Assembly (NCBI GenBank): GCA_020055645.1
Contig: CM034548.1
Span: forward strand, 39,486,296 to 39,550,295
Direction: 5' to 3'
Length of the DNA: 64,000 nucleotides
Source of the DNA: Tomocerus qinae
Taxonomy: Eukaryota > Arthropoda > Collembola > Entomobryomorpha > Tomoceridae
Under the pieces are notes generated by a model. That model saw only the letters and a list, made by a program, of their open reading frames with translations. It was not told where the DNA came from and searched no databases. Positions 9,501 to 43,900 of the stretch are shown piece by piece (the stretch's first letter is position 1; every line of letters starts with the position of its first letter). Position numbers and translations under genes: made by a program.

Positions 9501-12399
9501 TTCAAGTTTTCATTTTGTTGGAACAGAAAATATTATTGTCATTTAATTTCTTGTAACAAGCGAATCGTATTCTAAAAATCTTTACATCTGGCCTGTCACT
9601 GTCCGTCTATTTATTGCTACTTATTATCATTCTAAAACGACTGCGATTAGGTAATTATTTCCAATTCAGTAGTTTTTCTCTATTGTAGCGTAGAAAAGCT
9701 GAGTCCAGTGATCTTCTGTCGTGTCTCCATCATTCAGTAGTTTTGCTGTGAATCCACTCACTCTGACTTTAAACCTTCTACTATATAGTTGTATCTAGTG
9801 CCGTAGACTCTATACGTATTCACTTTTCTCTCACATGCCACAGTGTCGACGTGCCAAATGATTAATTTTGTTTGAATTTTATTAGAAATCTGGGCGGTGG
9901 AATGCAATGCACGTGAGAATCGCATGGGAAATTTACCAGCACCAGCAGAAAGGCGGCGGAGGTCATCCGGATGGAGGGAAGGGCGGGAACAGCAGCAACA
10001 GTGGCTCGTCCTCCTCCAAAAGTTCAATGTCCTCGTCTGCCCCGGGTCAACAGAATCTGAGCGGAGGGAGCGGGATTCCGCCGTCACCGCAACAAGCCTC
10101 GTCGAGTCTAGCAGCCGATCTCCTTAGAACTCCTAACCATGTATTTCCAGGACTTAGTCGACCGCCGGAGGTGGGAGGGGGTGGCCCGTTCGGATCTCCT
10201 TTACTATCACCCCATGCTCCTCCCCCTCCACCTACGCACCGAGGAACTCCCTTCGACTCCTCGCACTCTATATTTCTCAACTCTAACCCTCACAACTTAG
10301 GTAGTATTCATTACAAGCCGTCAAAAGCCCTTTCTAATGCTCCTATCCAATTAAGAAGGATAAATAAACCACATCGAGTAGGTGATCTATTGTACTCTGT
10401 TACAGGACCACCTTTGCCGAGATATCCGGGCTTTGGAGGTTTGGGACCAACTTTCGGAGGACTCAGTAGCCTCGGTTCTAGTCTCTTAAGTCGAGATCTG
10501 AGTAGTTTAGCTGCCCTCGGACCATCTCAAGAACAATGGCATAGGTACTCCTTTCTTTAAAACATTTACTCCCTAATCTCATGTTGCTAGAAAGAAATTC
10601 CTTTATCACTCTGAAGTTGACAGAGGCGAAAAATAATGCCTGAATTCCCAATTTGACAAACGTCCTTTTTTCCATTACCTTAGTGACTTCTCCTGTTCTG
10701 TTTTCTGACTGATGTTATATTTTCCACTATTTTGTTTTGAATCTCCCTAATAAGTCCCTGGAATTGTGAATTCCTAATTGTTTCCACCAGAATGATTAAT
10801 TTATATTTAATTGATAGGATGCACAGAGGCCCGCCATTTCCGGGAACGAGTGGTCCTATCGGTGCTGGTTGGCCATTGCAGAGGCCGGAGAGAGACGTGA
10901 AAACTCCGACGGAGTCTCGTCGTCACAAAGAGGAGCGGGGACTGGACAAGAGGCACGAGCCTTCGTATCTGTCGGAGAGCAGTAAAGTTGGAGGGGGTAA
11001 CGTGCGGGATGCCTCGCCTTTCCGCGACCGTTCTCCTGTGCGTCCTGCAAGAACTCCTCTGGAGAACGGGGACACGGACTCTCGCAGTTCTCGTTCTAGT
11101 GATTCCCATTCCGCCGTCCATCCGCCGACATCAAAGTCCATAGCACGGCTCAAAGAAGAGTCTGCCAATGGGGAGCGGGACAAGACGTGTACACCTTTAA
11201 TGTCTTTCGATCGAGACAAAATCCCGCATCCAGCCATTCTGAACGATATTAATAAGCCTCCGACTCACATGACCTCCTCGCACCCCTCCAGGTATTTATG
11301 TCTTTTTTTGATCATTTGCAGTCGGAGGAGCTTAGTCTTCCGCCTGGCTCACCTCCTTATGTGTATGAACTTTCCACTCATGCCCATCTTTAATCTCTTT
11401 ACATATATAAAAGAATTTAATGTCTCTTTCCACTGCCTGTTTGACAGAAACAAGAGCTCCAGATTCAATTTAGCTCATCTTTATTGTCTGTCGTTTTTCA
11501 CGACAGAAAATTAAATTTTCTCTCACTGTTTCTTTCATTAGACTTCTTATGCTCAATCTATTTATACGTAGACTTTCTCAGTGAGTCTTTTGAAAAAGTC
11601 TTCTTATAATGTCCTCTGCTACACTTTTACATATTTATGTAGCTCATTTTCCAATAGAATTATCATTGCTTCGTTGACTCGTCTCATTTTCAGTTCTTTT
11701 AGCAGAACATTAATGCTTCTCTTTCATGGCCTTCTTTTGTACTTGTCTAATCTTAATGCTGTTATCACGAGACGAGTTCATTTCAATGACGTTATTCAGC
11801 TCTAGATGATTTTCTTTAAAATTAAGGGAGACGGAGACACTTTATTATGTTACTTTTCTTTGTGACTCTCTGTATCTATCTAATTGGGACTGAAAAGGGT
11901 TTTTGATGGAGCTGATTATATTTTCAGGTTATTTCACCCAAATTCCCCCCTTGGAGTGCCTATTACAACAGGATGGGACACATTCCCTGGAGTGGTTGGG
12001 GCTGGACCGCGGATGTCTAGTGCGGAATCCTTTCGACTGAGTCTTTTGCAGCTGAGTGAGCGGGAGAGAGAGTTGTCTCGAGTCCCGCCTCACCAGTCTG
12101 CAATGAGACCTCCTTTTTTTGCTAATGGACCTTTTGGAAATTTACCCTTGGGGAGCATGGGTGTGGGGCCCCCGCCCCCTCCGGGCTCCACAGGAAGCAG
12201 TAACAGTTCGAAGAGCAGTCCGTCAAGTGTACCTATTCCACTAATGAATCCCTCTCCGTCACCAGCTCACATGCACGGCCACAGCTTAAGCCACCTCCAT
12301 TCTAGTCAGAATGGACCGAACAGTCCAATGAAATTGGAGGACCAGCCTTCCTCATCTTCAACGTCTAGGTCAAAGGAAGAGTCTCATCAGTCGCGATAG
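561..12399 (+). CDS. AUTS2: AUTS2/Tay-bridge family nuclear protein, 3' portion (5' partial)
   Basis: Exons by splice sites and frame: 561-978, 1344-1469, 4698-4993, 5198-5430, 7339-7482, 9886-10300, 10406-10544, 10818-11291 and 11928-12399 (TAG). They join in phase to about 904 residues; the first opens mid-codon after an acceptor, so earlier exons lie upstream. The diagnostic AUTS2 core is the exon starting at 9886 (KSGRWNAMHVRIAWEIY, then HQQK). Other family blocks are ESRFLATD, a DSPFYR block in exon 7339-7482, and QEQWHRMHRGPPF across the 10544/10818 junction followed by a charged Arg/Glu region. The first exon has a His/Pro-rich tract and a Ser/Arg segment (SRSHSPRGHSPSRERD). Otherwise the protein is Pro/Ser/Gly-rich and mostly disordered. 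Vertebrate AUTS2 acts with a non-canonical PRC1 complex in neuronal transcription and Drosophila tay affects locomotion; a chromatin role here is inferred from family. Confidence 0.9.
4994..5020 (+). other. Alternative 5' splice-site segment (27 nt) of the AUTS2-like gene
   Basis: Two in-phase donors follow each other: CATG|gtaatt at 4993/4994 and CTAG|gtaatc at 5020/5021. Both leave a single G and both join the exon at 5198. Using the distal donor adds nine residues, so two isoforms are possible. Which is used cannot be told from sequence. Confidence 0.4.
8569..8601 (+). other. Possible 33-nt phase-0 microexon in an AUTS2-like intron
   Basis: A pyrimidine-rich acceptor (ttgttttgtag) is followed by 33 nt that are more GC-rich than their surroundings, then a gtatgt donor. 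The segment is open (TTDACKPAKVM) and phase 0 on both sides, so it could be inserted between exons 7339-7482 and 9886-10300 without a frameshift. Vertebrate AUTS2 has extra sequence at this point, but I see no residue match. Confidence 0.25.
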
Positions 12400-18900: not shown

Positions 18901-21900
18901 TTAGTTCGGTGAGGACCTAAAAACGACTTGAACTGTTTCTTGGGGAAGAATTACAATTTGAGCATCTCTATTGACACCATCTTCAATTACAAAACAAGCT
19001 ACTGATTTTCGTCTGACAGATACAGAGCAACTTGGGTTTAAATTGATGGTCTCTACAACAATATTATTTGGAGAATCTGAGACATTATTAGGATTGGAGT
19101 TTTCAGCTAAAGATTCTTTGGTATCATCAAAACAATTTAAAAGTTCTAAGACTAGTATACAATACATATTGGTAACAATTATAAAAACAATGAAGAGATA
19201 TGTCAACAAGAATAATATAGATTTAGTGAAGTCTCCACACTGTACACAGTCGTACTCTTTGCCTATTGCATCCAGAATTGCATCCCAACCTGAGAAAGTT
19301 GTCACTTGGAATATTGTAAGAATTGCGTTATAAAATCTCTCAAAATTAATCATCTCGGGAAGCGTGAATTCTGTAAATACGTTTTTAAAGTGAGACACTC
19401 CTAGTACGCTAAAAGTAAACATAAACAATGCTAGCGTATAAATTAAATTCAGAAGCACAGGATAAATCCGGGATAATCCCAATAAAAAAGTAGAGATCAT
19501 TGATGCACGTCGCAGAAACGGTTTGAAATTAAGGATTCGTAAAATGCGAAGTGTTCGTATCACAGCAACAACTTCTGCATAGATATCGTCATCGATTATG
19601 TAGGCTGGAAAAATTAACCAATTAAGATTTATGCCAAATTATTTTAAAATATTTTGTACGTAAACATTCTTTAAAAAATCATATATAAAATTGTGTAACA
19701 GTTTTACCTGATATAGAAAACAGGACGATTATCAAGTCAATTATATTTAGATAATTCTTTAAAAAATGTTGTTTCCAGGCTATTATCTTTAGCAATAATT
19801 CCACTGTGTATAAAAACGTCACTGTCGCAAATATTAGGTCCAGCAGAGATATTATACGCTAAAAATACAAAAATCATTCATGGAGAAAATTAGACGTTTT
19901 GGTAAATTTTAGGAAATTTTGGGAAAACAAGCAAAAACCTAATTGTTTTCATATCTGATGAGCCTTTAACAAATTTTCAACTCTAAGACATGTTATTAGT
20001 ACATATTACAGTTTAGAAAATAAAAATTTCCATCTTTCAGAAATTGATGTGGAAAAATTAAAGTATCAAGTACATTCAGTTACAAAGTGAAAACCCGACC
20101 AAATCCAACGATAACATTAACAACTGCCAATTGTTAGGTAATTGAGAAAGCTACATGTTCATGTACATTTATGTTTTAAAAATCTTACCTCGGATGCTGC
20201 TAGCGAAGACCCGGCTAAAGCAATAACGTCAACTATAATCACAGCCATCACCAAGCCTTCAAAGGGTGGTGAAAACACCAAATCATGTATGCAAGTGAAA
20301 GGAACGATAGTTGGCTTTTCTATGACAGTGGCAGATGAATTTCCCAACTTCTTTTTGTTGTACTCTTCTACTTGATCAAAAGTCATGAAGTTTTCCTGTT
20401 TCCAATTTTTTATTTTAACAGTTTTAAAATATTGAAGAATATTTTTACAATATTGAATAATACCTTATTATGTTTAACGTGGAATATTAGTGCGCCAAAA
20501 ATGATATTGCAAAGAAAAAATGCTGCAGAAATAAAGATGGCCACAATGTAAATGTTGATGGTTATAGCCTCTATAGGAACGAATCTTTCATATTCCTATA
20601 AATAGGATAACAAATTGTTTACAAAATATTAAATTACATTAAATACAATATATTTTGCTTCAAAAAGAAAGCCAATTGCCTTATGTGAAGTCAAAGCATC
20701 CAACAATATATTTTTCCAACCGTTTCTTGTGGTAATTAGCGCAATACTCAAAAGACTTGATTCTAAATCGTCAAAATTGTGGTCTGCGTTTGTCCAAGTC
20801 AAATTGGCTGCTAAACATTCGTGTTTTGCATATTGTACAGCTTTATACTCTGTTTCTTCCCAACCTAAACACTAATAATTCATAATTTAAGATAATTGTT
20901 GCAAGTTGTTCTTAAGCTGAATATTTTTAGACAAAAAAATTGGAATCTTACGCTGTAAAATAAGCCTCCGTAGATACGAACTCCTTGAATGGCTAAATAA
21001 ATCCACACAAATGCAGCTGCAATGAGAAATCTCAAGAGGAAAGAAAGCTCTCTTGTAATTCCCGAGAAAACTGCCTATAAAAATCAATTTTGTTCTTTAA
21101 ATTGGATTGCTTAGCGAAAATTCTTTATGCATAATTTGATTATGAAACGAATCTAAAATTATAGAAAATCGTAAGATATGGCAGCAGCAAATTTATGGGA
21201 ATCGTGAACTGCAAATTAGATTGTTGCTTCACCAGAAATTATGATAGAACCGTAATTCCAAAAATTGTGCTTATCAGAACATCGTGGTACCTTCAATCGT
21301 TGTACTCTGGAAATGAGCATCAATGGACGGAGACATCGTACAGACATTACTCCATAACTTTGAAAAGTTGAAGAATAAAAGTCAAGTAAAGACAGATTGA
21401 ATATCATCTCCTAAATTTTAAAGACAACAGCAAAAATGACAAATTAACTGTAACATTTTTGTTAATGGGACAATTTGTTATTTTTCATCGTTAAGGAATA
21501 AATGTATCAGATAAATTAGGCGCACCACAAAAGAAGACTCTTACCAAAACAATTATTGTGTCAAATATCCAGTTCAGACTACAAATGGATTTTAGGAAGC
21601 CAGTTGATATTAAAGCCATGATAATATCTATAAGAAAATATGTTGTGAAAACAATCTCAATTATAAATAGGACGATGTTTATGCCTATTTGGTGGTGTTC
21701 ATGCTCGATATCATTTGGAATCTGCAATAAAAAAGCCAAAATCATTTTTGGTAGATTGTGTTGGTATAGGTAGACGCAAAAAAGAAATATTACCAATGCG
21801 ATAGAAGATACAGTAATGACAAAAATTGACAACATCTTGGTGTATTTATTTTGATGAATAGCAGCAATTTTGCATTTCTTTTGTCTAGGTTCACTGGACA

Positions 21901-24900
21901 TATTTTCCTGTTGGGTATTTCCCGATTGCTGCATATCACTAGGAACATCTCCATCTACTGCCGCTGCAGTTTTGTTCGAAAATGTCCTGATTGCTTTCGA
22001 TTTTACAGTGCTAAGTAGAGTTACAAATTTCTGATAAAAGCTTGTGGACTTGCTAGTTGTCTCTGAAGTGAAAATATCATTTTCTTGCATTTTCAACACT
22101 TTATAGGTTGTGAAAATAGTAGAAACACTTAACAGAGTAAAGAATATATTTAGAATAACAACAACACTGAAAAAGTAAACAAAACACGATTTTCCGGACA
22201 TTTGTAAACAATCCCAAAGACTTTCAATCCATTCACCGCATAAAACACGGAATGAAATCATAAACGATGAAAAAAATGTCGAATAATTCCAAATTGGTTT
22301 TCCATACAAATTATCGTTGTCATCATCTGTAATAAAATAATACATACCATCTCTAGAAATTCTCTCCACCCACAGAATTGTAAGTATTATTTTATAGTAC
22401 AAAATACTTATTACCGTAAAATGTGTCTTTGTATAAGAGGACACCCAATACAGTAAAAGAGTATATTGCAAATAATGCCAACACAAAATAGGCCAAATAT
22501 TTTCGTACAACTTGCGACAAAATTATGAATTGTAGTTCTAAAGTCGACCAACGAGATCCTAGTTTAAACATTCTTGCCTGAAAGATTTTTGAGAATGAAA
22601 AATATAATGGAATTGAAATTGAAACTAGTTGTGACTAAAAAAACAAATGCATTTTACCACAAGCATAACATCAAGAGTGTTGTCTTCTATCTCCAACTTT
22701 TTAGTAATTCTATTAGCTAAGTACAAGACGATAATGAAGAAGTCGAATACATTCCAGTAATTTTTGAAATAGTGCAGCGGACTTAGGGAGACAATTTGTA
22801 AAATGAATTCAACAATATAAACAGCAAAGCAGACCTAAAACAATTAAAGATATTTATAGTAACATTTTGAATTATGTTTGGATGGTTGGAATATCCAATT
22901 TTGTTTTATTTTATCACCTTACAAATATAGTAGGACGCTATATACATAATTGGAAGATCTTCAATGCCATAAAAATTATAAGCCATTGTAATTATATCAA
23001 TCAGTATTATTGTGCAGATAAATAATTGTGTCAAGCCATGATCCATGAACTTTTTAAGTGTTTCTCGGACTACTCTGAATGTTTCATTACAATTCCACCC
23101 ACACAACAAATCCAAATATCTTCCTGGTTGTGCTGCAGATGAATTTTCTTCTTTTTCAGCAAATAAATTATGTGTCTCTTCTATGATGGCTCTTGCAATG
23201 ATTGTCATAACGTAGGTTTTCAAAATAAAAGTTCCGAATAGAAATATCCCTATAAAATAAATTACATTCCACGAACCTGCAGATGCCCATATCTGTAAAA
23301 TAATTTTAATTTTATCAAAGGAAATAATTGGAAGCATGATATTTGAAAATTCAACGAGGAATTTCCAATTAGCCCATTGAGACGGGAATAATAATAAGCG
23401 GATACAAAAGAAATAACCTTGTGATATAAATCTTCTGGATAGTCTTGCATGAAAAGTCTTAGTGTTTGTATAAGTGCTTGTGGAAAAGAGTCAAATGATG
23501 TGTATCCGTAGTTTGGATTTGCATTGCCCATCAAGCATGTTAATCCCACTTCGCATTGACTATAATACAATTACAATATATAATCATAAAGGTTGCCACA
23601 AAATGTCACCATTTTTTGGAATACCTTGAGCTAGAGTAGTTTCCACATAATGGTTCTGAATGATCTTGCACAAATATTGGTTCAAGTTGTTCTTTTTCGT
23701 GGTCTAAACCATTATCGATTTGTTCAATGTCATAAGTATGGGTCTCGTTAAAATTTGGAATACATTGCTGCGTTAAACTTCCCTTGAATAAATGGATTCC
23801 TATCGTAGAAAAAAGAACTGACAGAAGTCCGCACGATATAATAGTACTTCGTAGCTTTCCAATTACTTCCAGGAGGAATTCAAAACATAGTTGAAGACCT
23901 GATTTCAATAGAACAATGAAAAAATATGTAGAGATTAAGCAGAAGTAAAATGGATAATGTTTAAATTATACCTACCAGATATATATGGAATAATTTTGAA
24001 TATTCTCAAAGAGTATGCAATTTTATACATCCAAAAGGAATAGTTCAAATACAGCCATCTACACAAACAACCGTGGCAAATTATTTTTTTTCATTTCTAT
24101 TGTTAGAGAATATTTTCTGGATTTATTTGTATGCATGCATAATTGCATATTATTACCCATTGACTATCAGAAATAAATTGAAAACGTTCCATGGAATTCT
24201 CATGCATGAAAACGGGACCAAGATTAATCCTCTTCCTGCTATTGTTATGAGTAGTTCTGTAGTGTAGATAGAGAGAAATACACATCTAGATTCAAACACA
24301 AGACTTTAATAAAGCAAACATTGGCGAGTTGTTAATAAGTTCTTTGTTCGTGTCATAACTGAGTAGATACTTCAGTTTCTGTAGCAATAATAAAAAGTAG
24401 ACTGACCAAAAGATTTTTAAAAAAAATAAGATTCTAACTTAATATGCTTTGTCAATGTTGGTTTTTACTTGGTGAGAAATTTTCATTTTGTTAACATTTA
24501 TTACGTTAAGTATGTTAGTTTACTAGTCTTAGATTGACAAGGGTGATTTGACAAAGTAGTTGGAAGAAATTAATTAATTAGGTACTAATTTAATTAAGTT
24601 TATCTAGAATATATTCTACTACTGGTATAAATTAAGTACCCTATTCCTATTTGTTTATAAGTTAATATAAAATATAAATATACTAACTCTGAGATGAAAA
24701 ACAATGCATTATTAGTTGAAGTATTCTTGAGAGCAAAGAAGCAGTTGAGGAGCACAACAGCTACAATGAAGGCCGAGAAGAACCAATGAGTCAGTAAGTA
24801 AATGGTGGAGCGGCGAAAAGCATTAAATGGACTCAGAGTCAATAGAGTCAGATTTCTGCTAAATCTGTAAATTCTTTGATTTCCGATCACCACAAAAGTC

Positions 24901-26253
24901 TACAAAAATTAATCACAAAAAACTACATTAAAATTAGTATAACATAGAAATATACTTTAGTATACTTACAATATTATGCATAAATGAGTAAGAAAAAGAA
25001 TTGTGACTGAAATTGCTTTTGTCTCGTGATCTAGTTTCTTTAAATTCTTAATTAATGATGCATCAAGTGGGCGTGTAGCTAGAGAATTTACCACATGTAG
25101 TATTTGCCAAGTAGTTTACAAAGTCTCAATTTACAGTATAGTACCATGTAGTTTGTTTCTGCTCAATCGGTGTTTCATTTAAAATGTTGTAATGCTTTTC
25201 TTGATTTTTTATCATGCATTAAACATGTCAATTATAACTCCCTATGTCTACGTTTTCTCAATTAACTTCAAATAAAAAGTTTTGCTTGGGATTCTTTTAC
25301 TCGATGATGTATAACCTAAATTTTAAAGTTACTAAATAAATAAATTAAGTGGAGTTGCTATTAACCATGTTTCGACCCCCATTGTATAAAATTCGATATT
25401 TCAACGACAGCAATAAACAAATATAAAATAAATTCATTTAAATGGGAACAAAGCCAGTAACATTATTTAAACAATAAGTACAGTAAGTAGTATATGACAA
25501 TTACTGTAAGCACTGTCCATGAAAAATTATTAAAAGAAAGTGAATACATCTCTTGCGTTTTGATAGGGAATGCATGAGTTTTTTGTCTCAAGTGCTTTTA
25601 CATTATACTCTGACATACTCACATGGCACAACAACATGGGCAACTAACCAAAATGTTGCAAATGAAAAATGCATCCAAGTTGCTACTGTCATTTGACAGC
25701 AAATTAACGTGCAGTAACCATTGTAGATTCGGAGTGTAATAATAGCGTTCAGAATTGAAGGAGGTACTAAAATATTTAATGGTTAATCGTAAAACTTGTC
25801 TGGTAAATATTTTACAGAACTGAATAGTGTTGACAGATGAGATATGTAATAAGGGTGTCTGTGTATAAATTCGTTACTTTTTGTATTTGGTAACGCGCAG
25901 TTTAACTCTAAAACATTGTTATGACTGCACATAAGTATAACCTTTGAATTTAAGTATTTATCTTAAATTAGCGTGCGTAACAAACGGAAACTTACATTAC
26001 GCTTGAAATAAAATGGATCAATTTCTTCCAGTGGCACATGCACTAATGTGTCTGTCAGTTGAGTTTTTATTTCCTTAGGAAGCGGCATGCCATTGCGGAA
26101 TAAAGGGTTAGGATTCAAAGTAGGCGTCTGAGAAATATTTGCTTCGTTACGGCTGCCCTCTGAACCAGAACTGTTAATTGCAGTCGGCTCAGACTTTGGC
26201 ACACGCTCCCGGGTTAATGGTTTAAGTAATGGACCTTCTTCTCGCACAGACAT
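18901..26253 (-). CDS. Four-domain voltage-gated sodium-channel-like protein with DENS selectivity filter
   Basis: Exons, 5' to 3': 26253-25996, 24899-24688, 24285-24157, 24058-23976, 23898-23625, 23559-23418, 23292-22918, 22834-22658, 22577-22415, 22326-21794, 21721-21545, 21410-21291, 21074-20952, 20871-20680, 20595-20464, 20395-20189, 19858-19708, 19604-18901. They sum to 4152 nt (1383 residues) in uninterrupted frame; the ATG follows an in-frame TGA. Insect Nav (Para) landmarks occur in order: LLKPLTRE and PLEEIDPF at the N-terminus, DI pore [12 protein letters not shown]...[12 protein letters not shown] pore [19 protein letters not shown] pore [10 protein letters not shown], inactivation loop [11 protein letters not shown] pore [14 protein letters not shown]6 [11 protein letters not shown]. 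Filter residues are D, E, N and S where Para has D, E, K and A. S4 charges are reduced, the DI-DII linker is about 30 residues, and the C-terminus lacks the EF-hand/IQ region. It should be a plasma-membrane cation channel, but sodium selectivity and voltage dependence are doubtful. Confidence 0.92.
20596..20679 (-). other. Probable GC-AG intron in the channel gene (DIII pore to S6)
   Basis: The DIII pore exon reads into AAG|gcaatt, and the next exon begins after ttatag at 20595. Both are phase 0. The 84-nt intron needs a GC donor. The only nearby GT donor (AAT|gtaatt) would leave a 42-nt intron, shorter than the others in this gene, and would add 14 residues absent from the family. Confidence 0.6.
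21722..21793 (-). other. 72-nt in-frame intron with open reading frame in the channel gene
   Basis: The intron runs from TTG|gtaatatttc to ttattgcag|ATT, is a multiple of three and contains no stop. Splicing it out restores the spacing between DIII S1 and S2 seen in Para to within one residue. Retention would insert 24 hydrophobic residues. Confidence 0.7.
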
Positions 26254-37900: not shown

Positions 37901-40900
37901 ATTACCTCAGAATTAAAAGCCTTCAATGAGCTTAATACATTAGTTCGTATTTTATGTAATTATATTAGTATAGAGTATACAGTTTTCTAAGAAAACTCTT
38001 ACTAATACATTATTATGGTGATATCTTCCATTAAAATAGGTTCAAGAATGGAGTTCCATGGGGAAAAGCAAAAGAATGTGCACAGCAAGACCTGGATGGC
38101 AAACTATCTGTTTCCGAATTCCGACGTACAAGGATTCATTGCACACAATCAAAGTGAATCTCGTAGACATTATTGACATCAACGTCGAAAGAAAGGTTAA
38201 TTAACTTAAATTCAGAATGTAATACATTTGTGTGGTGGGAAAGACCAAGGCCGTTGTTTAATATATTTACCAAATACAATACAGGTGGTCAAATGCGAGC
38301 CTTTAGTGACTATGGGGCAATTAAGTGCAACACTAGAGCCTTTAGGGTGGACTATTCCTGTTTTGCCAGAACTAGACGACCTGACTATAGGTAAGTGTAG
38401 ATCCATCCTCCAATCTCTAAAGATATTTAAGTATTTAATCACAATTAAAAAGTGGGATTTATTTCGCCTAAATCCTGAAAGAATTATAGTTAATACAGGA
38501 TTTAATTGGCTCCAAACCAACCAGGCTGCCAAAAAATTTTGATGCCTGATATACATACGTAGATACATAAGGAATTTAATATGCATGTGTCACATTAAGT
38601 ATATACTATAGTCGTGATATTGTAAAACTAACAAAGATGGCCAAGTAAGTTAGAGGTTAGCACGGGCAGCAAAATGTCTGCCGTTCAATTTTCTGAAGTA
38701 GGTATGCTTTCCAGATACTAATATCTCGTCAGTATCATTATCGTATACTAGTCTCATCCTAATAGTATCAATCAGCGAGCCAGTTCCATCAGTCAGCATT
38801 CAACAAATTCATCATACCACTTATTATGTTACAGATGAATTGCTGACATTAGATATATAGGTATATGCATTTGTCCTAGGACATCTGTATTTCCTATTTT
38901 AGCCCATTGTACCCCAACTTAAACCCATGTAGCATAACTTAAATCAATTTAGACGAACTTAAACCCATATAGCACACCTAAGATCAAATTAGACGAACTT
39001 AGATCAATTTAGACGAACTTAAACCCATATAGCACACCTTAGATCAAATTAGACGAACTTAGATCAATTTAGACAAACTTTGGCCAATTTAGACGAACTT
39101 AGGCCAATTTAGACGAACTTAGGCCAATTTAGACGAACTTAGGCCAATTTAGACGAACTTAAACCCATATAGCACACCTTAGATCAAATTAGACGAACTT
39201 AGATCAATTTAGACAAACTTTGGCCAATTTAGACGAACTTAGGCCAATTTAGACGAACTTAGGCCAATTTAGACGAACTTAGGCCAATTTAGACGAACTT
39301 AGATCAATTTAGACGAACTTAAACCCATATAGCACACCTTAGATCAAATTAGACGAACTTAGATCAATTTAGACAAACTTTGGCCAATTTAGACGAACTT
39401 AGGCCAATTTAGACGAACTTAGGCCAATTTAGACGAACTTAGGCCAATTTAGACGAACTTAGATCAATTTAGGAGAACTTAGGCCAATTTAGACGAACTT
39501 AGATCAATTTAGGAGAACTTAGGCCAATTTAGACGAACAGCTGAACTAAGCCTAATTCGTTTTTATGTTGTCGGATTCTTCACATTTTGGTCTTCAAATG
39601 GTCTTCATTTTAAAAATATACTAATTCTACCTATAGCTTAGTCGAGAGTGCTGAAAATAATGCATATTATGAATATGAAACTGCGTTATGAAAGTGCCTA
39701 CCCTACCAGAAATACATAAATACAGGTATCATTAGATTTCCTCCCAGGTTAGATCAACTCCCTGTATGACTAGCTCCAGATACAAAAAATATAAAGAAAC
39801 GGCAGAAGGAAAATACCTATAAATACATAGATAGATTAGTAGATACATATATAGGTGCATTTATAGCTTTATCAAGTCTACGATTATATTCCTTATGTAG
39901 TATATAGCTTGCAGAATGCAGAATAGTCTTGTAGAAAGCTAATGTTTTGGAATGCTCAATAATGATGGTTACTTTGTAGGTGGACTGGTGATGGGGACTG
40001 GAGTCGAAACATCATCTCATAAATACGGGTTGTTCCAACATATCTGTGTTTCTTTTGAATTGGTCTTGGCGAACGGGGAAATTATCACTTGTTCGAAGGT
40101 ATTTAATTGAATTGTATTTTTATACTTAACTATTGAAATGTATTTATGCTCCGAAATAGTAATTACGCTATGGACTAGACTCGACTATGGGTAGTTACTT
40201 ACATTTCTACGGTACAATGGGTACGCAGACGCATTATGTTCTTTCACCACAGGAGATAAAAATTATGGAAAAAGTGGAAGTAGAAAGCATAATTTTTTGT
40301 AATATGCTTAAAAGATAGAATATGTTTAACAAAATTGGATTTATTTTAATATCATGAAGTAATGACAATTATTGGTATATACACTAATAAGGTTAAATGA
40401 GTTAGTTAATGCTAATGTATTGATTTAATTATAGGACAAAAACTCAGATTTATTTTACGCTGTCCCATGGTCATATGGAACTCTAGGCTTTCTAACTGCC
40501 GTCGAAATTGAAATTATACCAGCAAACAGGTTCGATTTGTTTAAAAATTAATAGTTAAATTAAGCACACACATCATCACATTTGGAAACTTAATTTAATG
40601 TACAAATACTCAATAAATATTTCAGTCTTTTAGCATACCTATTAAATGGCTAAATTGTAGTCGTAGTACTTATGAAGTCTTTAGCCAGTAAAAGTCATTA
40701 ATAATTATATACCTTTGTTTTACTGCCCAATTTTACTCCCACCATTGCTCTAGTGAAGAAACCTGAATTCTAATTATAATAACCGCTATTATCTAATTCA
40801 AAACAATAATTTTATTGCAGTTACATGTCCTCGCTGCTTATTAGTCTACATAGGTTTATTTTTGTGTAACTCCAAGGCATAGACATAGCGTAGTGTCTTT

Positions 40901-43900
40901 ATATGTTACTAAAAGTATATACCAAGTGGTTGGCCATTGATTATGCTTAGCTGAAATCATATCATCTTTATTTCTGCGACAAAATGTTAAAATTTTCTCT
41001 TCTGGCAACGTGTCTTTGATGAATGCTCAATGTAAATTACAGTATACAGAAAGTAATACGAAGTAAACTATATATATCATCGTGTCATATAGATAGAAGA
41101 TAGATTACAATATTATGTCGTCTTCAACAAGATACTTTTAGCACATATCGTTATAACGTTGTATGTATTCAGTATGATACTACAATTTCGTTGAATTTTC
41201 TATGGAAAATTTTTGATTTTAGATTTGTGAAGATGGAATATCACCCAGTTCATTCTTTGGATCACGCTGTCAATATATTCGAAGAGCAGACGTCAAGATC
41301 AGAAGGAAATCAGTTCGTGGAAGGAATAATGTTTAACAAGGATCAAGGTGTAATCATGATAGGAAACATGGTCACGTCTGCAGAACCTGGAAAAGTAAGT
41401 GCACATTTAAATAAAGTCATTTCAATTCCTCCTGAAAAGTGAAACAATATTCGTGTCATATGTAAATGTTTTGTTGGACATTCAATATTGTCGGTATAAA
41501 TATTTATATCTCACTGTGACTTCTGGATGTGACGGATCTTACTGCTATCGTTAAAAGTAGTTGGAAACAAAGGTCTACGATCTACCACATGAATCAACAA
41601 TTATACCTTTACTATTTTCGAGAGCATATTTTATGTTGAGGTGAAAGTTGAATAATTCTTCGCTCAAGTTCCAATGAGCACGACACGCCGGCGAAGCTAG
41701 GCGGCGATATTCGTGCGAATAAATAATTGGCATTTGTGTTTAATTGGCTGTCTCAATGGTTACTCATTTTGCTATAGATATGAAAGAAAGAAACAGATTA
41801 TCAAATTGGCGGAGCTTGATAAACTCTAATCTGACTAAGTTTTATGATGAACATTACATTATAACAGAGGTCGAAAGGCATCATTGATTATGTCGACATG
41901 GTCTATAACAGCACCATTAGGAAACATTGTTATTCATGGTCAAGTTAATACGAGTCTTTTGAGAAAACCGTTTTAATTACCTTTTTTACAAAATGAGAAA
42001 AATTCAATAATGTCCAGCAGCAACACTTGTAGTAGTAGTAGCGTAGTATTATCGACTAGTAATATTAAGTAACACTAAAGCTGGATATACCAAATTATAA
42101 TTAGGTAGGAAAACGATAAGGTAGTAGTATTCCTTATCCAATATGCAATCCAGTATATGAATGATTTTTGATTTTTATATTTATCCCTTTATAGCCTTGG
42201 TCATGGTCTATGTCAAATGGTGATATCAGGATACCAGTGAGACTTTCTAGCACGACAAGTGATCTTTATGCAGCGTTTAACTATAATAAATCTGAATGAC
42301 TTGATGACCTTTCTATCGCATTTGTCTATCGGACATTCTAATGGGAAATTAGTTTCATTGAACCATATTTAATAAACTGTTAACTTGATAGGAATATGAA
42401 AATCTCGAGTTTTGACACAAATCCAGTATTTTTGACATGCACAAACATATAATGTTGTGATTTATGACTTCAACTCTTAATTCCATTGATAGAGATTTCA
42501 GAAGCAATCTTTAAGTCTATATAAATACAATGTGTCTGTATTACAAAAATTCGAGTGGTTATTGATCTCTGATAATATTAGTTTAGATGCTCTATGTCTA
42601 TACCATTAGTACCTACTGTAGAAATATGTATCAAAGATTTGATTATGTATGTACATGGGGTATTTTCCATTAGTCACATAATCATGTCTTGCATGGAAAG
42701 TACAATCACCATAAAACCAAAAATCGCACAATTTGTTGCCTTTGACGGCTTTTTATGCATGTAAAAAGTAGTTTCATTCATTCATTCATTAGATTTGGGC
42801 ATCCATTACACAACCAAGCTCGGCTTAAAGAAACTTGCTTTTCAGCATATCTTGTATTCTGTAATGATATGAAATCTTAAGCAACTTTCTTGTTTTTGGA
42901 TTTACCTATGTTTCTTAAGCCTGATAAATGTGTAGCTTAGCTTATAATTAATTATTGTAGGTAGATCTACTATCTGTAGTACGGATAGGTAGATCTGGTA
43001 GGGATACAACTATTATGACTTAGTACTACTGTATCGATAATAAATGTGTTCGTAAGATGTTTTTACAGATATGTGTTTCTGTATTACAGTGCGGAGTCCA
43101 CTAAGATTTTTTAAATGTTGTCGACCTTGGCGTAATTATTTTTTGCAACATAAACAACTTTCAAAGAGGCAAATAAATATAGTTTTGCTATAAGGAAAGA
43201 ATCGAAAAATAAGTGATATTCATTAAATTCTGTATTAATTTCCGACTATATAAGCTGAAGTTGATGCTAAGTAGGAAATGTTGCATTGTTATATATGCAA
43301 TTAATACTGACAACTTCGATTCTGTAATATTGACAATCAGCAATTTTACACCCAATACTTATAGCAGATATTTATGCCAAAAGTAAGAATGGTATAATAA
43401 TGCTTAGTGGGCACAGCGTAATAATGTTGTATAAATATTATTTTAATTCCAGTTAAACCGGATCGGACTATGGCACAAACCGTGGTTTTTTAAGCATGTC
43501 GAAAGTTTCCTAAGCAATGGCTATGGAGTTGATTACATTCCACTAAGAGATTATTACCATCGACACTCCAGGAGTCTTTTCTGGGAGATTCAAGACATCA
43601 TTCCCTTTGGAAATAATATTATCTTTCGGTACCTCTTTGGATGGATGGTGCCCCCAAAGGTGTCACTGCTCAAGTTGACTCAGCCGGATGCCGTCAAAAA
43701 GCTTTACGACACTCAGCACATGATTCAGGATATGCTTATACCTATGAGCAAACTGAAGGAATCTATTTTGGCATTTGATAAGGAAACACAGGTCTAACTT
43801 TAATCTTTTACTGCTGACTCTTAACTTATTTTAATATCACGTTTACTAGTATTTGCAATATTTAATAATTGGTATCTTTTTTCAGATCTATCCGCTGTGG

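Follow-up and report, generated by a model that had tools for sequence, protein, structure and literature searches.

What kind of channel is encoded by an arthropod gene that keeps the four-domain build of the voltage-gated sodium channels (Nav) and carries Asp, Glu, Asn and Ser (DENS) in the selectivity filter, where Para, the Nav1 channel of arthropods, has Asp, Glu, Lys and Ala (DEKA)? Such a gene is located within a 64,000-nucleotide stretch of the genome of the springtail Tomocerus qinae (hereafter, the window), on C3, a 51.6-megabase (Mb) contig of a 334-Mb assembly whose five large contigs measure 140, 72, 52, 34 and 24 Mb. The same filter letters occur in the sodium channel of aphids, and the initial annotation read the gene either as an unsplit form of that channel, which aphids encode in two separate genes, or as a second paralogue. 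Our analysis places it among at least seven divergent, fast-evolving paralogues that exist beside an intact para gene. We consider it probable that its product is a Nav1-derived, NaX-like cation channel, weakly voltage-dependent and poorly selective, and that its likeness to the aphid channel is due to convergence.

Structure of the DENS channel gene

The gene model (Table 1) contains a reading frame of 1383 codons with no internal stops. All 17 introns end in AG, and 16 of the donors are GT, the remaining one being GC. The same 18 exons were recovered by a splice-aware alignment script that used only Drosophila Para, our reference for the fly protein; the two models differ in the edges of exons 1, 12, 15 and 18. 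In Pfam, the protein matches Ion_trans four times and no other family. Its best match among solved structures is cockroach NavPaS (530 bits, E-value 1.1e-157), so that chance resemblance to Nav is excluded; the best-scoring calcium channel reaches 197 bits, which rules out an origin as a calcium channel. The pore of domain II (DII) and segment S1 of domain III (DIII) lie within one exon, and therefore the four domains form one gene at the genomic level, as had been proposed from this exon. The positions given earlier for the four filter codons are all correct as well, and the presence of Asn and Ser (N972 and S1254) rather than Lys and Ala in DIII and domain IV (DIV) is upheld. By the gene model and the independent alignment, this is a single, unsplit four-domain gene related to Nav, with a DENS filter.

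Table 1. Parts of the DENS channel gene in the window (positions are those of the window; D358 to S1254 are the filter residues)
Feature	Position	Strand	Content
Whole gene	18901..26253	-	18 exons, 1383 residues, four Ion_trans domains; predicted Nav1-derived DENS channel
Exon 1	25996..26253	-	Start codon and N-terminus; PLEEIDPFY stretch aligns to Nav
Exon 6	23418..23559	-	Pore loop of domain I (DI); filter Asp D358 (GAC, 23444-23442), then Tyr, Pro (Pro 23438-23436; Trp in Para)
Exon 10	21794..22326	-	DII pore with filter Glu E636 (GAA, 22234-22232), DII S6, DII-DIII linker of ~94 residues, DIII S1
Exon 14	20680..20871	-	DIII pore; filter Asn N972 (AAC, 20724-20722); GC splice donor
Exon 16	20189..20395	-	DIII-DIV linker with NFM, MFM in Para (Asn 20392-20390); start of DIV
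Exon 18	18901..19604	-	DIV S4-S6; filter Ser S1254 (TCA, 19293-19291), preceded by Phe (19296-19294); tail of ~80 residues; stop codon

The protein shares with arthropod Para the four domains, the pore loops and the N-terminal stretch. It differs from Para in the filter, in the low identity of the domains (28-32%), in the inactivation motif, and in the S4 segments, where only 13 of the 25 charges are found at the Para positions (3 of 5 in DI, 2 of 5 in DII, 4 of 7 in DIII and 4 of 8 in DIV), whereas both Para proteins that we compared, those of the fly and of T. qinae, have all 25. When the alignment is inspected by eye, an Asp in DI S3 of Para is seen to be replaced by Asn (WNVFN compared with WNWLD), and the Asn that is conserved in S6 of Para is lost from DI and DII but kept in DIII and DIV. 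No Pfam match to Na_trans_assoc was obtained for the DII-DIII linker in exon 10, or to GPHH or IQ for the tail in exon 18, both exons matching Ion_trans only; as a control, the Para protein of T. qinae matches Na_trans_assoc and GPHH above the cut-off and IQ below it. Because the DEKA ring, the full set of S4 charges, the MFM or IFM motif, Na_trans_assoc and the GPHH and IQ domains are all missing, the gene falls outside the voltage-gated, sodium-selective class by the features that we tested, while being Nav1 by descent and NaX-like by convergence, as detailed below.

Sodium channel genes of T. qinae and the descent of the paralogues

The genome was searched with three protein queries, namely the window protein, fly Para and one of the paralogues, so that all counts given here are lower bounds. 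A canonical Para gene was identified at C1:122.426-122.4365 Mb. It is unsplit, lies on one strand, extends over ~10 kilobases, and encodes DEKA, MFM and the complete S4 charges; no other Para-like gene was found when a split arrangement was sought with the Para query. Its product is 76.8% identical to fly Para across DI-DII and 81.3% identical across DIII-DIV, whereas the corresponding values for the window protein are 32.1% and 27.9%. The mutually exclusive exon pairs c/d and k/l are known from Para of other insects. By eye, these duplicates appear to be missing from T. qinae Para (C1:122432322-122432484 and C1:122433843-122434262), as a second copy would not fit into the adjoining introns (75-173 bases).

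Besides Para, at least seven divergent genes encode four-domain channels: the window gene and those at C2:14.74, C2:44.98, C1:58.77, C1:91.654, C1:91.674 and C1:123.79 Mb. The search with the second paralogue revealed no paralogue locus beyond these seven among the matches listed. Four additional loci are DSC1/Nav2-like (C2:66.79-66.80, C1:99.64-99.65, C1:105.68-105.69 and C2:29.48-29.51 Mb), and three of them (C2:66.8, C1:99.65 and C2:29.48) encode Glu in the DIII filter position; the locus at C1:105.68 was assigned from search matches only, and that at C2:29.48 was assigned from pieces. The latter was considered as another Nav1 and rejected, its DIII sequence TFEGW being DSC1-like. Insects are usually described as having one DSC1/Nav2 gene. 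The Para query also matched C4:0.57 Mb (E-value 1.3e-17), where the sequence resembles a calcium channel by eye. The counts leave out further Ion_trans clusters, for example, at C5:2.43, C1:100.70, C2:5.81, C1:79.84 and C1:131.82 Mb, none of which appeared among the listed matches of the three queries. Altogether, at least eight Nav1-type genes and, by search matches, four DSC1-like genes are present in this one arthropod genome. This complement agrees with the earlier suggestion of a paralogue and contradicts the view of the window gene as the main channel, except that it is one of at least seven such genes and not a single extra one.

The other six paralogues were modelled on the genomic DNA with a homology-guided script. 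Some small exons (13-24 bases) are doubtful in several of these models; the one for C2:14.74 starts one residue upstream of the first Met, and in the one for C1:91.674 no start codon could be identified. All seven frames reach a stop codon, span 1294-1479 residues and are interrupted by 16-22 introns. The filter is DENS in the window gene, C2:44.98 and C1:123.79, DENG in C1:58.77, C1:91.654 and C1:91.674, and DEDA in C2:14.74. Thus, all seven retain the DI Asp and the DII Glu, and all seven have lost the DIII Lys, which is replaced by Asn in six and by Asp in the DEDA member. The residue immediately before the DIV filter position is Phe throughout (Ser in Para), and the Trp located two residues past the DI filter Asp is invariably lost, with Pro in the window gene and C2:44.98, Thr in three paralogues, and Ala and Leu in one each. 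Each paralogue has fewer S4 charges than Para. The inactivation motif is V/I/L-F-M in the six paralogues other than the window gene. In Pfam searches with the C-terminal stretches of five paralogues (exon 18 of the window gene and four others, that is, all except C1:58.77 and C1:91.674), only Ion_trans was matched, with no GPHH or IQ; the stretches of C1:91.654 and C1:123.79 did not extend to the stop codon.

The seven paralogues are monophyletic with a support of 100/100 in both trees that we built, with one and with two outgroups; the trees contained no vertebrate row. The window gene is separated from two DSC1-like rows, again with 100/100 support, and falls on the Para side. Among its 17 introns, 13 match those of Para in phase and lie within three alignment columns, and one more has the same phase at a distance of eight columns. 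Two introns are common to all seven paralogues and one DSC1-like gene and are missing from T. qinae Para, and one is shared with only two other paralogues; with DSC1-like genes, the window gene has three intron positions in common, one of which is found in all nine genes compared. Given the intron positions and phases shared with Para, the window gene is, by descent, a product of DNA duplication of Nav1, and the duplication most simply would predate the loss of two introns from Para in this genome. In the two-outgroup tree, the paralogue clade is sister to both Para genes (92/95), and the nested alternatives have approximately unbiased test values (p-AU) of 0.025 and 0.034; the one-outgroup tree did not fix where the clade branches off with respect to the Para split. 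The tree thereby weakly favors a duplication that preceded the divergence from the fly lineage, and, with a clade stem of 0.95, long-branch pull may contribute to this placement.

Other origins were considered and dismissed. An origin from Nav2/DSC1, whose ring is DEEA, is ruled out by the filter, with Asn rather than Glu in DIII, and by the tree; the two channels are alike in being four-domain relatives of Nav. A retrocopy is ruled out by the 17 introns, most of them at Para positions, and contamination by the 51.6-Mb contig together with the Para-like introns. The protein database yielded nine distant relatives of the window protein, and all of these that are assigned to an organism come from algae or protists.

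Most invertebrates are described as having a single Nav1 (PMC6259924). Arthropods with more than one gene of the Nav1 type are nevertheless already known: the copepods Labidocera and Calanus have two, NaV1.1 and NaV1.2, both recognized from their DEKA ring, and for Calanus the assembly of six NaVs is reported (PMC5655441). Unlike the window protein, the copepod NaV1.1 and NaV1.2 are full-length (2069-2094 residues) and carry DEKA. In the open-licence full-text literature, to which our survey was confined, we recognized no description of divergent hexapod Nav1 paralogues. In the portions available of two springtail papers, sodium channels are named only as ENaC and in the references (PMC4468109), and no mention of a sodium or ion channel was found (PMC5490193).

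Resemblance to NaX and the predicted properties of the channel

The filter region of the window gene combines three substitutions that are found in human NaX (SCN7A). The human chain (7tj8/7tj9) reads QDYPEVLYHQI in DI, TFNGW in DIII and IFAGW in DIV; the window gene shares the DI pattern Q-D-Y-P-E-x-L-Y-H, in which Pro replaces the Trp of Para, as well as Asn for Lys in DIII and Phe for Ser in DIV, where its segment is TFSGW. The pair of DIII Asn and DIV Phe is present in six of the seven paralogues, and the complete set with the DI Pro in two, the window gene included. When a 76-residue DIV pore query was used, NaX came first among 44 PDB matches (E-value 9.6e-8). The S4 charges are reduced in murine NaX, too, and the structural role of the NaX filter residues has been described (Noland et al., PMC8931054). 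Over its full length, the window protein scores 422 bits with NaX compared with 530 for NavPaS. Because the introns tie the window gene to Nav1 of the same genome and NavPaS outscores NaX, it does not belong to the SCN7A lineage, and the likeness is, on these comparisons, local convergence at the filter and not kinship.

Anatomy and kinship can be read from the gene directly; for selectivity, gating and expression, the following scheme is proposed. Duplication of the arthropod Nav1 (para) gave rise to the divergent clade, with the intact para presumably retaining the role of the nerve sodium channel. Loss of the DIII Lys would lead to poor discrimination of Na+ from other cations. The Asn, Phe and Pro may repack the interface of DI, DIII and DIV as in NaX, producing a wider and more negative filter. 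With reduced S4 segments, opening would be driven weakly by voltage or not at all, and the channel might provide a background, sensory or signal-gated cation conductance instead of supporting action potentials. Poor Na+ selectivity is suggested by two comparable channels: introduction of DENS into fly Nav compromised selectivity for Na+ (Amey 2015, PMC4332693), and NaX, once a mutation has opened its S6 gate, neither responds to voltage nor selects among monovalent cations (PMC8931054).

Several observations weigh against this interpretation. The S4 segments of DIII and DIV still carry 5 and 6 Lys or Arg residues, so that some voltage dependence may remain. The filter ring is DENS and not the DENA of NaX, Ser replacing Ala in DIV; the DI Pro is limited to two of the seven paralogues, and the DEDA member is without the DIII Asn. 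For DI, the NaX signal is much less clear than for DIV: an 85-residue query ranked NaX 29th of 59 PDB sequences, after NavPaS and many Navs, and a 22-residue query gave, at E-values of 10 or less, two PDB matches, of which the better was to an unrelated glucoamylase (0.32) and the other to NaX (0.65), these being weak scores of a short query. NaX itself passes current only after mutation of the S6 gate (PMC8931054), and the analogy therefore cannot prove conduction. The window gene is known here from genomic sequence, its function being predicted, and the case for selection on it comes from an intact frame at high divergence.

Next to a weakly voltage-dependent channel, the explanation that fares best, while clearly less likely, is a voltage-gated channel of excitable cells with relaxed selectivity and a tissue-specialized role, as proposed for aphids. 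Each S4 segment retains some of its charges, the filter Asp and Glu are kept, and the hydrophobic-Phe-Met motif persists in the six other paralogues, all of which would suit such a channel. What makes it less attractive is the loss of about half of the S4 charges, the replacement of the Asp in DI S3, the NFM of the window gene and the unmatched C-terminal domain.

That the paralogues are a family of decaying pseudogenes, relaxed duplicates on their way out, appears unlikely. The window gene has a long end branch in the tree (1.26) and has lost S4 charges and the C-terminal domain, one model (C1:91.674) is without a start codon, and the ratio of nonsynonymous to synonymous substitution rates (dN/dS) reaches 0.457 in the youngest pair among three recent copies, as decay would have it. 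This ratio is nevertheless below 0.5 in all three recent pairs (0.266 and 0.369 in the other two); for the pair of C2:44.98 and C1:123.79 it is 0.144, at a saturated synonymous divergence (dS) of 3.6. Furthermore, seven long open frames with 16-22 introns have been preserved although several branches exceed one substitution per site, and the filter Asp and Glu have been kept in every one of them.

Slightly less likely again is a regulatory or non-conducting subunit, which would partner, trap or modulate Para. Retention of the Nav scaffold with loss of gating and C-terminal parts would fit this role, as would the uneven loss of the S6 Asn across the domains, but all four filter loops are recognizable, and the filter changes look coordinated and not random.

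Finally, it is most improbable that the gene is an unsplit orthologue of the aphid channel, that is, the main Nav of the species or the direct ancestral state, because, in spite of the shared DENS letters and the four domains joined in one gene, T. qinae has a separate, unsplit DEKA Para with MFM and all S4 charges, which rules out this orthology, the window protein is only 28-32% identical to fly Para, and two sister paralogues also carry DENS and three more carry DENG. The aphid subunits H1 and H2 are 64-68% identical to fly Nav1, retain the full S4 charges and MFM, and form the only Nav of aphids (Amey 2015, PMC4332693); in Rhopalosiphum padi, the two halves are 64.1% and 64.0% identical to fly Nav1 (Zuo 2016, PMC4954994). 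Hence, the aphid channel, compared here by its published description, consists of two genes with a near-ordinary Para sequence and is the sole Nav, whereas the window gene is one divergent gene in a genome that keeps its DEKA Para, and the match is most simply explained by convergence on the filter ring only.

Other loci and the significance of the paralogues

Elsewhere in the window, an open frame on the forward strand (9886-10557) weakly matches the Auts2 family, at 27.4 bits against a cut-off of 23. Frames at 38210-43794, also on the forward strand, presumably resemble delta(24)-sterol reductase; two of them were run against Pfam, with no match. In the rest of the assembly, copies of mitochondrial DNA were observed in large contigs (C1:36670928-36672268 and C1:139.1 Mb) and at C81:11659-12892. 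In one nuclear copy, a long COX1 frame and its neighbors read without stops in the invertebrate mitochondrial code and follow the order ND2-COX1-COX2-ATP6; apart from COX1, the frames were named by eye. The COI protein looks like that of a springtail and unlike that of an aphid. COI was found in nuclear contigs only, and no mitochondrial or ribosomal RNA contig was recognized among 19 slices of small contigs that were read by translation, 8 of them also with Rfam. Matches to DIOX_N at C1:120031248-120031619 and C2:4509309-4509719 lie in open frames of 374 and 368 residues (best E-value 1.2e-27, for the 374-residue frame); these are perhaps isopenicillin-N-synthase-like genes of horizontal origin, as reported for springtails. 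Genes of the isopenicillin-synthase type have been reported for the springtail Folsomia candida (PMC5490193); isopenicillin is named for an annelid too, so that it is not confined to springtails. Together with the COI protein, these genes would point to a springtail as the source, and the unsplit DEKA Para makes an aphid very unlikely. An open frame at C100:3000-3500 resembles, by eye, the acyl-carrier domain of polyketide synthases.

It is possible, at somewhat short of even chances, that an arthropod lineage, probably the springtails, has independently evolved a multi-gene counterpart of NaX, in which at least seven weakly voltage-dependent cation channels derived from Nav1 accompany an intact DEKA Para. 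If so, loss of the filter Lys would open a single structural route that the Nav scaffold can take repeatedly, as in vertebrates, in this clade and, as far as the filter ring is concerned, in aphids. DENS by itself is not to be taken for an aphid trait. With seven natural filter variants next to an ordinary Para, the effect of losing this Lys can be separated from nerve function, and because the window gene repeats the NaX substitutions, the hypothesis of a joint repacking by Asn, Phe and Pro becomes directly testable.

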